Shown one piece after another: positions 60,349-64,000 of a stretch of 64,000 bases of DNA. The translations under genes and the position numbers were made by a program. The number at the start of each line of letters is the position of its first letter. The stretch's first letter is position 1. This DNA comes from Streptomyces sp. 71268 (lineage in GTDB: Bacteria; Actinomycetota; Actinomycetes; Streptomycetales; Streptomycetaceae): assembly GCF_029392895.1 (NCBI RefSeq), contig NZ_CP114200.1, positions 5,053,001 through 5,117,000 of the forward strand. The letters run 5' to 3'. Below the pieces are notes generated by a model that was given only the letters and a program-made list of their open reading frames with translations, was not told the origin of the DNA and did not search any database.

Positions 60349-61689
60349 ATGCTCAGACGCGCACGAGCCCGCATCCGCACCACCGCGATAGCCGCGGGGG
60401 TCACCGCCGTCGCGGTGCTGACCGGCACCGCGAGCGCGGCCGGTGGCGCCGGGGGTCAGCGGCCGAGCGTCGCGAACGGCGAGCGGACGCACGAGGTCGA
60501 GTACTTCTCCGGTCCTGGCGGCCACGGCCGGCACGTGCGGGTGGCGGCCGAGCCGCCCGAGCGCGTCGCGCGCGCCCAGCGGCCGCTGGACGCGGCCGAA
60601 CGGGCCGGGGACGGCGACGTCACGCCGATCGTGGGGAACGGGTCGACCGCCGACAAGCTCGACGTGGTCGTCATCGGCGACGGCTACACCGCGGCCGAGC
60701 AGGCGGACTTCCACGCCGACGCCCGCGCCAAGTGGCGGCAGGTCTCGGCGGTCGCCCCGTACGACGCGTACCGAGGGCTGTTCAACGTGTGGGCCGTGGA
60801 CGCCGTCTCGAACGACTCCGGCGTCTCCGGCGACCCCACGCGGTCCGTCGTCAAGGACACCGCGCTCGGCTCGTACTTCTGGTGCGACGGCCTGGAGCGG
60901 CTGCTGTGCGTGGACACCGACAAGGTCGAGTCGTACGCCGCCAAGGCGCCCGCCGCCGACCTGGTCATCGTCGTCAGCAACACCGCCAAGTACGGCGGCG
61001 CCGGCTACAACGACGTCTCCTCCGGGCCCGGTTACGACGGCATCGCCACCGTCTCGTCCGACCACCCCGACTCCGCGCAGGTCGCCGTGCACGAGACGGG
61101 CCACTCGCTGGGCAAGCTCGCCGACGAGTACGTCTACGACGAGTACGGCACCTACACCGGGCCCGAGCCGGCCGACGTCAACATCAGCACGCTCGGCGCG
61201 TCCGCCATGGCCGCGCAGCGCGCCAAGTGGTACCGCTGGCTGGGTCAGCAGTCCCCGGACGGCGGCACGGTCGGCGCGTACGAGGGCGGCGGCTACTACC
61301 CGCGCGGCCTGAACCGCCCCACCGAGAACTCGATCATGCGCACCCTCGGCCGCGAGTTCAACCTGCCCGGGCGCGAGGCGATGATCGCGGGCTTCTACCG
61401 CCACGCGAGCGTGCTGGCCAGTGACGTCCCCACGGACCGGCCGCTGACCCGTGGTCAGCGGGTGAGCGTGCGGGTGCCGGAGTCGGCGTCGGTGCGTTGG
61501 TACGTGGACGGGCGCGAGGTGCGCCGGGCGCGCGACAAGCAGGCGGTCACGCCCGCCTCGCTCGGCGTCCGGCCGGGCGGCCACGGCCAGCGGATCACGG
61601 TGCGGGCCACCGACGCCACGGCCTCGGTGCGCGACCCGGAACTGCGGAAGCTGCTGACGGACAGCCGTAGTTGGCGCGTGCGCGGCTGA
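60349..61689 (+). CDS. Secreted M64 family metallopeptidase
   Basis: A 446-aa exported protein. A basic start and hydrophobic core (TTAIAAGVTAVAVLTGTASA) form a signal peptide cleaved near residue 34. The zinc motif HETGHSLGKLADE lies at 248-260 and matches the M64 HEXXH family. Other landmarks are GDGYTAAEQADFHADARAKW and NSIMRTLGREFNLPGREAMI. M64 enzymes include IgA-cleaving peptidases in other bacteria; in a soil actinomycete a general extracellular protease is more likely. The C-terminal 80 residues form a beta-rich add-on. Confidence 0.9.
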   Translation: MLRRARARIRTTAIAAGVTAVAVLTGTASAAGGAGGQRPSVANGERTHEVEYFSGPGGHGRHVRVAAEPPERVARAQRPLDAAERAGDGDVTPIVGNGSTADKLDVVVIGDGYTAAEQADFHADARAKWRQVSAVAPYDAYRGLFNVWAVDAVSNDSGVSGDPTRSVVKDTALGSYFWCDGLERLLCVDTDKVESYAAKAPAADLVIVVSNTAKYGGAGYNDVSSGPGYDGIATVSSDHPDSAQVAVHETGHSLGKLADEYVYDEYGTYTGPEPADVNISTLGASAMAAQRAKWYRWLGQQSPDGGTVGAYEGGGYYPRGLNRPTENSIMRTLGREFNLPGREAMIAGFYRHASVLASDVPTDRPLTRGQRVSVRVPESASVRWYVDGREVRRARDKQAVTPASLGVRPGGHGQRITVRATDATASVRDPELRKLLTDSRSWRVRG

Positions 61690-62131
61690 CGCGCGCCCCG
61701 GGGGGCGATTCCCCTGCGTTCGGTAGCCGGGGATGGCCTCGAGTAGGCGGTTCGGTAAGTGAGTTGAGGCGATCGCGGCGGCGGTCGGCGCGCGTCGGGT
61801 GAGGGCCCGGTGGCGCCGGCCGCCGCTGGCGTGTCGGGGGGCGGGTCGCGGGCGCGGGTGGGTCGGGGGTCGGTGGGGGTGTCGGTGGTCCGTTCCGTGG
61901 GGTCGGTTGGGGGCTCTTTCGCGCGGCCTATTTCTTACGACGTTCTGTTTAAGGGTCAGTAATTGACGGCTCATCTCTTGCGGGTGGCGCTGGCGTTGGG
62001 CTGATTGTGTGGATGGATGCCTGGCGTGAGCGGGCTGATCGCCCAGCTCTACAGATGGGATGAAGAGGTGTAAATTAGGACATCGTGAACAGCCGTCGAG
62101 AGCGATGGCCACGTCTATTGAGGAGGCATCG
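61690..62131. other. Intergenic region upstream of the peptide operon
   Basis: About 442 bp. It has an AT-rich patch at 61920-61980 (CTATTTCTTACGACGTTCTG) and a TAAATTAG near 62073, either of which may belong to the promoter. GAGGAGG lies 5 bp before the peptide start. No gene is confidently seen before 62132. Confidence 0.45.
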
Positions 62132-62308
62132 ATGCTTGCTCAGCACACCGCATCCCTACTCGCCACTCCCACCGACCAAGCAGCCGTCGGTCACCTGATG
62201 ACCGAGCCTGAGGCGCCGCTGAGCGACGCTCCGATGTACACGCCGCAGGCCGCGGGCGTGCTGCTGCTCCTGCTGCTCCTGTCGCCGAAGGAGCCGAAGG
62301 ACAAGTGA
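62132..62308 (+). CDS. 58-aa leader-type peptide with Leu-7 run
   Basis: A small peptide gene from ATG 62132 with an excellent GAGGAGG ribosome site. The peptide has a polar N-terminus (MLAQHTASLLATPTDQ), then an acidic segment (HLMTEPEAPLSDAP), then MYTPQAAGVLLLLLLL and a charged tail SPKEPKDK. It could be a RiPP-type precursor or a small membrane peptide. It overlaps the next gene by GTGA, and the following gene overlaps the third by ATGA, so the three are tightly coupled. No family was recognised. The weight of this call is the coupling and the start signal. Confidence 0.7.
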   Translation: MLAQHTASLLATPTDQAAVGHLMTEPEAPLSDAPMYTPQAAGVLLLLLLLSPKEPKDK

Positions 62309-63261
62309 GCCCCGATCGGTCGCAGACGGCCTACGCCGAATCGGCGGCCGACCTGGCTCGTCGTGTCCTCGGCGCCCTCCGGGGCGCCGGGGGCACGGCC
62401 CTGGTCGCCGAACACGTGGAACGGGCGGGCGACCCCAAGGCCGCGCTGGCCGCCCTGCGGGTCGTGGGAGCGGACACCTTCGCCCCGTTCCTGCTGGGCG
62501 ACAGCGTCTTCCACCCCCAGGACGCGGCGGCTTTCGCCACCTCCTTCACGATCTTCCCGCCCCCCGTCACCTCGCCCACCCCGCCCCCGGCGGGCCCCGC
62601 CGAACCCTGGGTCGTGGCCTGGCGCGACTGGGCGATGGCCGAGTTGCTCGGCCGGTTCACCGCGCCCACGGGACCGCCGGCGGCCGGCTCCGCCGCGGCC
62701 GGCCTCGCGGAGCTGACCGGCATCGACACCGCCGAGGTGACCGGGGTGCGGGCACCGCAGCCGCAGGGCGCGCCGCTGCTGGTCGACGACCGGTTGCGGG
62801 CCGCGTACGGCGCGGGCGGCCCCCGCGCGCGCGAGGCGGTCCGCGTCCCCGAGGGGTCGTACGCCGCCGACCGGCTGCACGCCACCGACGCCGCGTACAC
62901 GGCCGACGCCCCCGCGTCCGCCACCGAGGCCGCGGGTCTCGACTGGCAGCGCTGGTCGGTGCGGATGGGGCAGCTCTCGCCGCTGGCCCTGCCCGGCCTC
63001 GACGGACCCGTGCACCGCGCGGCGCGCGCCGCCCCGCTGGCCCTGGCCCGTGGTGCCAGCCGCGCCCTGCTGCGCCGCGACCACCCCACCGCCGCCCGCA
63101 TCGTGCGCTGGCTCGCCCTCCTCGGCTCCGACGGGGTGCCGCTGCCGCTGGAGCTGCCCCCGCTGATCGAGCACCTGGAACTGCTCGGTGGCGGCGGCCC
63201 CCGGATCGCCCTCGACCTGACCATCTCCCGCCGACTGCTCGCACTGGAGCCCTCCGCATGA
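62305..63261 (+). CDS. Unknown 318-aa protein coupled to the peptide gene
   Basis: A 318-aa protein starting at GTG 62305, overlapping the peptide stop. It is Ala/Pro/Leu-rich with no signal peptide. It contains DSVFHPQDAAAFATSFTIFP early, a Pro-rich linker (PPPVTSPTPPPAGPAEP) near 93-110, and an Arg/Ala-rich C-terminus with HPTAARIVRWLALLGSDGVP. I do not recognise the fold, and no catalytic motif is visible. Its stop overlaps the start of the third gene. A partner protein for the peptide, such as a recognition or maturation factor, is a reasonable hypothesis. Confidence 0.7.
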   Translation: MSPDRSQTAYAESAADLARRVLGALRGAGGTALVAEHVERAGDPKAALAALRVVGADTFAPFLLGDSVFHPQDAAAFATSFTIFPPPVTSPTPPPAGPAEPWVVAWRDWAMAELLGRFTAPTGPPAAGSAAAGLAELTGIDTAEVTGVRAPQPQGAPLLVDDRLRAAYGAGGPRAREAVRVPEGSYAADRLHATDAAYTADAPASATEAAGLDWQRWSVRMGQLSPLALPGLDGPVHRAARAAPLALARGASRALLRRDHPTAARIVRWLALLGSDGVPLPLELPPLIEHLELLGGGGPRIALDLTISRRLLALEPSA

Positions 63262-64000
63262 CGGCGTCCGTCACCCAGACCGCCCACCAGGTCAGCTCCA
63301 AGGCGCTGGCCTGGCTGCACGCCCACCACCAGCGCGGAGCGCTGCCCGACGACACCACGGCCGACCTCGGCGACCCGAACAGCGTGTACAAACCGCTGGG
63401 CGAGACCGCCCTGGCGGGCACGCTCGTGCTGCGCGAGGCCGCGGCCGGCACCACCGAACTGCGCGTCGCCCGCGAGCTGATCGACTACTGCTGGCGGCAG
63501 TTCCGCGAGGGCGACATGCTCTACGAGCGGCTGCTGCGCTACCCGATGATGAGCGACCCGCTGGAGACGTACTCCCACTTCACCCGGGTCGGCTACCGGC
63601 ACGAGCCGCTGGAGCGGCTGCTCGCGCACACCACGCGACTGCGCACGGTGCGTGGCGTGGAGCAGGTGCCCAACCGCAAGCTCGCGGTCGCCAACGCCAC
63701 CCGCGTCGTCGGCCTCGACGCGGGGCCGCACGCCTACGACTGGGACGCGCTCGCCCGCGCCACCTGGCTCGGCGGCACCCCCGAGCCCTGGCTCATCGAC
63801 TGGATGACCGGCTACTCGCTGACCCACGCGGTCTTCCACCTCACCGACTGGGGCGCCCGCCCCACCGGGCTCTCGCTCGAGCTGACCGAGTACGTCTCGA
63901 CCTGGCTGCCGGTGTGGATCGACATCTGGGCCGAGATCGAGCAGTGGGACCTGGTCGCCGAGTTGATGATCGTCGGGTGCTGCCTGGAGCGGCCGTACTG
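63258..64000 (+). CDS. Unknown protein, DUF6895-like, C-terminus beyond window
   Basis: A partial protein of at least 247 aa from ATG 63258, overlapping the previous stop by 4 bp. It contains LAWLHAHHQRGALPDDTTAD, LGDPNSVYKPLGETALAGTL, and a Trp/Asp-rich part (YDWDALARATWLGGTPEPW). Repeated His/Trp/Asp positions, including THAVFHLTDWG, hint at a helical enzyme or receptor domain. The resemblance to the DUF6895 type is by memory and weak. The gene continues past 64000. Confidence 0.65.
   Translation, partial: MTASVTQTAHQVSSKALAWLHAHHQRGALPDDTTADLGDPNSVYKPLGETALAGTLVLREAAAGTTELRVARELIDYCWRQFREGDMLYERLLRYPMMSDPLETYSHFTRVGYRHEPLERLLAHTTRLRTVRGVEQVPNRKLAVANATRVVGLDAGPHAYDWDALARATWLGGTPEPWLIDWMTGYSLTHAVFHLTDWGARPTGLSLELTEYVSTWLPVWIDIWAEIEQWDLVAELMIVGCCLERPY

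Follow-up and report, generated by a model that had tools for sequence, protein, structure and literature searches.

A conserved four-gene operon of Streptomyces joins a small Leu-rich peptide to a DUF6895 protein and an S12 hydrolase: a candidate class of ribosomally synthesised and post-translationally modified peptide

Four overlapping genes cross the right edge of the window

The 64,000-nucleotide stretch of Streptomyces sp. 71268 analysed here (the window, part of one 8.38-Mb contig, NZ_CP114200.1, positions 5,053,001 to 5,117,000) is crossed at its right edge by an operon of four overlapping genes encoding a small peptide, a larger partner protein, a DUF6895 protein and an S12 hydrolase, which we put forward as a candidate new class of ribosomally synthesised and post-translationally modified peptide (RiPP). 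All of its features inside the window lie on the + strand. The peptide gene (62132..62308, ATG start and TGA end) follows a ribosome site, AGGAGG at 62121..62126, with a 5-nt spacer, and its 58-amino-acid (aa) product, the candidate precursor (class A in what follows), has seven consecutive Leu at residues 44-50 and ends in SPKEPKDK. The peptide stop overlaps the start of the 318-aa partner gene (62305..63261) in a GTGA at 62305..62308, and the partner stop overlaps the DUF6895 start in an ATGA at 63258..63261. The strong ribosome site, the Leu-7 run, the charged tail and both overlaps had been pointed out in a first-pass annotation of the window, and each was found again in the sequence. A longer peptide frame, starting at the ATG at 62060 (82 aa), was rejected because relatives begin at the ATG of 62132.

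The DUF6895 gene (PF21836), which would encode a peptide epimerase, occupies 63258..64000 in the window and is completed in the DNA continuing past it (L002, in which a position equals the window position minus 61499), giving a full product of 313 aa that ends at the equivalent of 64199 (L002:1759-2700). The same extension past 64000, proposed at first pass, added the fourth gene, for an S12/class C beta-lactamase-type hydrolase of about 402 aa (L002:2697-3905, the equivalent of 64196-65404), joined to the DUF6895 gene by a further 4-base overlap. No Pfam or NCBIfam model scores over its cut-off for the 58-aa and 318-aa products. The in-window part of the DUF6895 gene matches its profile with an E-value of 2.8e-68 and 230.8 bits against a cut-off of 23.8 (275 bits for the whole gene), so of the two larger proteins first taken to be of unknown family only the 318-aa one has no named family.

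The four genes are conserved as a set

A search with the 318-aa protein scored 7994 candidates, and the window protein was aligned with 22 of the 120 homologues listed, of 162 (alignment A1). Scanning genome contigs with an alignment of this family matched 155 places, of which 80 were kept, equal to 79 distinct loci. From these, alignments were made of 57 of 73 callable DUF6895 sequences (A2), of the window and 60 of 67 non-redundant partners (A3; 75 callable), and of 45 of 67 non-redundant hydrolases (A4; 73 callable). The partner is present in all 79 loci, DUF6895 in 77, the peptide in 76, S12 in 76 and all four in 74, and every one of those 74 runs peptide, partner, DUF6895, S12; the search for homologous operons proposed in the first-pass annotation thus returned an unchanged gene order. 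The peptide lies on the partner's strand in 76/76 loci, and a Shine-Dalgarno-like word 4-6 bases long lies upstream of the selected peptide start in 75 of these 76 relatives. The two genes share a 4-base overlap in 51 loci (GTGA in 50), with a start within 60 bases in 8 and farther off in 17. In the gene calls behind the strand and order counts, partner starts are wrong in at least L031, L053 and L073, and the distances from those calls are approximate. Loci with a peptide homologue include records of Kitasatospora, Embleya, Thermomonospora, Streptacidiphilus and Saccharothrix, and the closest named relatives of the partner, among the matches listed, are those of S. youssoufiensis (97% identical) and S. 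buecherae (96%). Because the peptide is conserved in presence, strand and overlap across several genera, the idea that its open reading frame (ORF) is a chance frame is refuted, and we give it practically no weight. The first-pass annotation had allowed for a peptide that is not conserved while the proteins are, and the peptide was found to be conserved along with them.

The set also holds together in whole genomes. Among 295 sampled genomes of the genus, the partner family (classes A and B together) occurs in 117 and DUF6895 in 129: 116 genomes carry both, 1 the partner only, 13 DUF6895 only and 165 neither, and the sole genome with a partner and no DUF6895 is a broken locus (L181). Partner and DUF6895 share contig and strand in 20/20 genomes compared out of the 116. 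Twenty-nine of the 117 partners score above 160 bits, and by our reading of the scores would be class A-like; the rest score 133.6 bits or less. In a wider draw over the taxonomic class, DUF6895 was found in 32/394 genomes and 12/137 genera, and in 0/14 control genomes.

Clustering of the called neighbours at the 79 loci yielded no fifth conserved neighbour; a 41-locus cluster is the peptide ORF itself, and the next large family occurs in 25/79 loci at scattered positions. Matching the four proteins to the PADLOC anti-phage defence models gave 0 families. A toxin-antitoxin or phage-defence cassette, which the coupling of a small peptide to a bigger partner might suggest, is very improbable given this result and a layout of four genes that is rich in enzymes.

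Three further observations concern the loci and their surroundings. In Streptomyces philanthi (L004, counted among the 74 full sets) the partner and S12 genes are in broken pieces beside an unbroken peptide ORF, which resembles an operon in decay. A divergent cytochrome P450 gene and a polyketide-synthase-like gene (type III by our reading) lie ~2-3 kb upstream of the cassette in L041, L045, L049, L057, L067, L069, L070 and L072. In the window, an IgA peptidase M64 family protein is encoded upstream of the operon at 60349-61689 (Pfam, 227.7 bits), and no such family was common to many loci in the neighbour clustering.

The peptide changes class while the enzymes stay

In the 77 class A peptides (the window's and 76 others) the first 24 residues are variable and the C-terminal half is conserved, with E27 and P55 invariant; almost all sequences keep S31 (75), P34 (76), P38 (74), S51 (73) and P52 (76). 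Substitutions by Ala, Gly, Ile and Val occur in the Leu run, and Lys-Glu-Pro repeats in the tail vary in number. The analysis of nonsynonymous against synonymous polymorphism (pN/pS) on the peptides left out those of L024 and L033. A sister class, B, has another peptide (…LLLSPPTPRPKKG), in which PPTPRPK is followed by a short terminus, and two DUF6895 ORFs are present in 19/20 loci where a class B peptide was called (L086 has three pieces). In the peptides of L121, L124 and L135 a Leu run like that of class A occurs together with a tail like that of class B, L124 and L135 matching the class A profile weakly, and class D peptides (L145, L146) have an Ala/Leu run and an acidic tail. Across classes A, B and D the peptide is thus exchanged and the enzymes are kept, which fits the expectation for a substrate. 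Sister-class peptides from operons of this type lack the long Leu run, which leaves the surfactant-like half of the original RiPP-like or surfactant-like guess unsupported; the RiPP-like half is well supported by comparison, with a peptide conserved beside its partners and, as described below, DUF6895 genes in RiPP-type clusters.

It is distinctly unlikely that the peptide is instead a working microprotein or signal, one that regulates the partner and the DUF6895 protein by binding or is exported, with the S12 enzyme an ordinary esterase or peptidase. Such a role would suit the conservation of the C-terminal half, the low complexity of the KEP tail, the wide, mostly single-copy distribution, and the 15/77 class A peptides that pass a transmembrane-like hydrophobicity threshold. 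It is at odds with the switching of peptide class around retained enzymes; additionally, no N-terminal signal-like stretch was found in any of the 77 class A peptides, and no stretch in the four class B peptides tested exceeds the hydrophobicity threshold.

The partner and the S12 hydrolase

The partner is modelled as a helical protein (predicted local distance difference test, pLDDT, 85.7) with no informative match in structure comparison. Arg, Asp, Trp and Leu make up most of the partner's invariant residues (A3), and one homologue, P0121 (510 aa), is a fusion with DUF6895. We infer that it is the peptide-binding component. A winged-helix leader-binding domain is common in RiPP enzymes, and the partner, being helical, is unlike it in look.

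The fourth gene encodes a PF00144 serine hydrolase (194.6 bits against a cut-off of 27, 3.3e-57, for the S. buecherae copy, to which the other model scores given here also refer) whose SxxK, YSN and HxG motifs are invariant in 45/45 aligned copies. Its best NCBIfam model is the AmpH D,D-carboxypeptidase, at 121.3 bits below the cut-off of 266. A class C beta-lactamase in the sense of a resistance enzyme was rejected, as NF033085 reaches 100.6 bits, far under its cut-off of 415. A strongly hydrophobic N-terminal stretch is absent from 39/45 copies, and the enzyme is therefore probably cytosolic.

DUF6895 and the proposed mechanism

The DUF6895 protein is predicted to fold as an all-helical (alpha/alpha)6 barrel, in which H190 and D231 are kept in 19/19 diverse members and H286 in 18/19. 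A 2026 paper by Shi et al. in ACS Catal. reportedly concerns, by its title, a lasso-peptide epimerase from the DUF6895 family. DUF6895 genes occur elsewhere in a radical S-adenosylmethionine (SAM) peptide cluster and beside LanB/LanC-type genes. The first-pass statement that no modifying enzyme was recognised has accordingly to be withdrawn, since the family has, by that title, a peptide-epimerase member and sits in unrelated RiPP-type clusters; gene context and this one title together suggest that DUF6895 modifies peptides.

The surroundings of these other DUF6895 genes are varied. In a separate RiPP-like cluster at L112:6183-15983 (also in L113 and L180), a 39-aa acidic peptide with the C-terminus CIVNNSSDIS is accompanied by two genes each for DUF6895 and radical SAM enzymes, together with genes for a prolyl oligopeptidase and a glycosyltransferase-like protein. 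At L149:5503-16001, in what may be a lanthipeptide-type cluster carrying a DUF6895 enzyme, DUF6895 adjoins lantibiotic dehydratase, LanC-like, ABC transporter, P450 and methyltransferase genes. Long DUF6895 proteins (382-596 aa) each lie downstream of a 65-86-codon small ORF unlike the class A-D peptides (L175:8889-10819, L176:8360-10272, L177:8944-10988, L020:5727-7230, L150:7641-9206 and L151:6538-8846), and these small ORFs are possibly another peptide class.

A short candidate precursor gene linked to genes for putative modifying enzymes, by which a RiPP system is judged, is what the loci hold (peptide in 76/79, order kept in 74/74). We favour, at a probability of about 0.55, a compact RiPP operon with a DUF6895 epimerase and an S12 enzyme that reads the D-residue. 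The 58-aa product would be the precursor, which the helical partner would bind and present to the DUF6895 enzyme; this would turn at least one L-residue into its D form by a two-base mechanism, with H190 and H286 as candidate bases. The D-residue would be a natural mark for the S12 hydrolase, which would recognise it and cut, or cut and join, the chain near the junction of the Leu run and Ser-Pro, with the KEP-rich tail remaining as a follower. The genes, their linkage and deep co-conservation, the intact S12 motifs, the predicted fold and the DUF6895 genes of other RiPP-type clusters are what the analysis shows, and the reaction, the changed residue, the order of steps, export and the biological role are inferred.

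A RiPP-type operon in which DUF6895 performs other chemistry, for example a cyclisation or another proton transfer in the alpha/alpha barrel, and S12 only removes a leader or tail, appears rather unlikely, as the title of Shi et al. names a peptide epimerase and the His/acid set is kept in 18-19 of 19 diverse members. Taken together with the epimerase mechanism, it makes the general RiPP reading quite probable.

Several points weigh against the epimerase mechanism. The system is known here from its genes, its product being unseen, and the peptide is conserved in its C-terminal half, which is not there the usual hypervariable core. The barrel fold resembles cyclases and glycosidases too, not epimerases alone, and the enzyme of Shi et al. 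may differ from that of the operon. With 13/129 DUF6895-bearing genomes having no partner, DUF6895 is not specific to the four-gene cassette, and the neighbour clustering of the 79 loci gave no transporter or regulator as a cassette member. Finally, 5/79 loci are without at least one part (L023, L069, L071, L077 and L080, of which L077 and L080 are at contig ends): DUF6895 is missing from L071 and L077, S12 from L023, L071 and L077, and the peptide from L069, L071 and L080.

Comparison with known systems

The operon enzyme shares the Pfam name DUF6895 and, as proposed, a peptide substrate with the lasso epimerase of Shi et al., a likeness drawn from the title, but in place of the lasso enzymes the operon encodes a dedicated partner together with an S12 hydrolase. 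The lasso leader peptidase PF13471 (transglutaminase type) has 0 matches in the whole genome of the strain, and the Asn-synthase-like PF00733 none in the operon and 6 in the genome, the nearest >1.4 Mb off; a lasso peptide cluster is therefore ruled out.

MslH, the epimerase of the lasso peptide MS-271, places two His/Asp dyads across the alpha carbon (PMC10406935). The proposed DUF6895 reaction would likewise invert a residue in a ribosomal peptide; MslH, however, has a calcineurin-like metal fold, in contrast to the modelled all-helical barrel. For the S12 enzyme the nearest parallels are penicillin-binding-protein (PBP)-type enzymes of natural-product routes. PBP-type thioesterases, SurE among them, couple an L-residue at the N-terminus with a D-residue at the C-terminus (PMC11735501) on substrates that are non-ribosomal peptides, whereas end-joining by the operon's S12 enzyme is a proposal. 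ClbP, with the same S12 Ser/Lys/Tyr triad, matures a natural product by cutting beside a D-residue, after N-acyl-D-Asn (PMC9889270); it is periplasmic, whereas the sequences of the operon's S12 enzymes suggest a cytosolic location.

Significance

The literature searched, which reaches few subscription journals, contained no description of this operon, and the first-pass term 'undescribed system' holds within those searches. Ordinary RiPP searches could overlook the system, since none of the classic RiPP enzymes is among its parts. The fullest version of the proposal, an undescribed RiPP class common in Streptomyces and relatives in which a barrel epimerase introduces D-residues into a Leu-rich peptide and a PBP-like enzyme of the cytosol reads the D-residue and releases or cyclises the product, is tentative and somewhat doubtful as a whole. 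The operon is a minimal four-gene setting for testing DUF6895 function. If the proposed mechanism is true, about 4 in 10 sampled genomes of the genus (117/295, classes A and B) would carry a small unnamed D-residue-peptide system, and class B, with two epimerase copies, would yield a doubly inverted peptide. The operon would then parallel, on the ribosomal side, the D-residue-gated PBP-type thioesterases that serve non-ribosomal synthesis, and D-residue-gated release by PBP-like enzymes would extend from non-ribosomal to ribosomal peptides.
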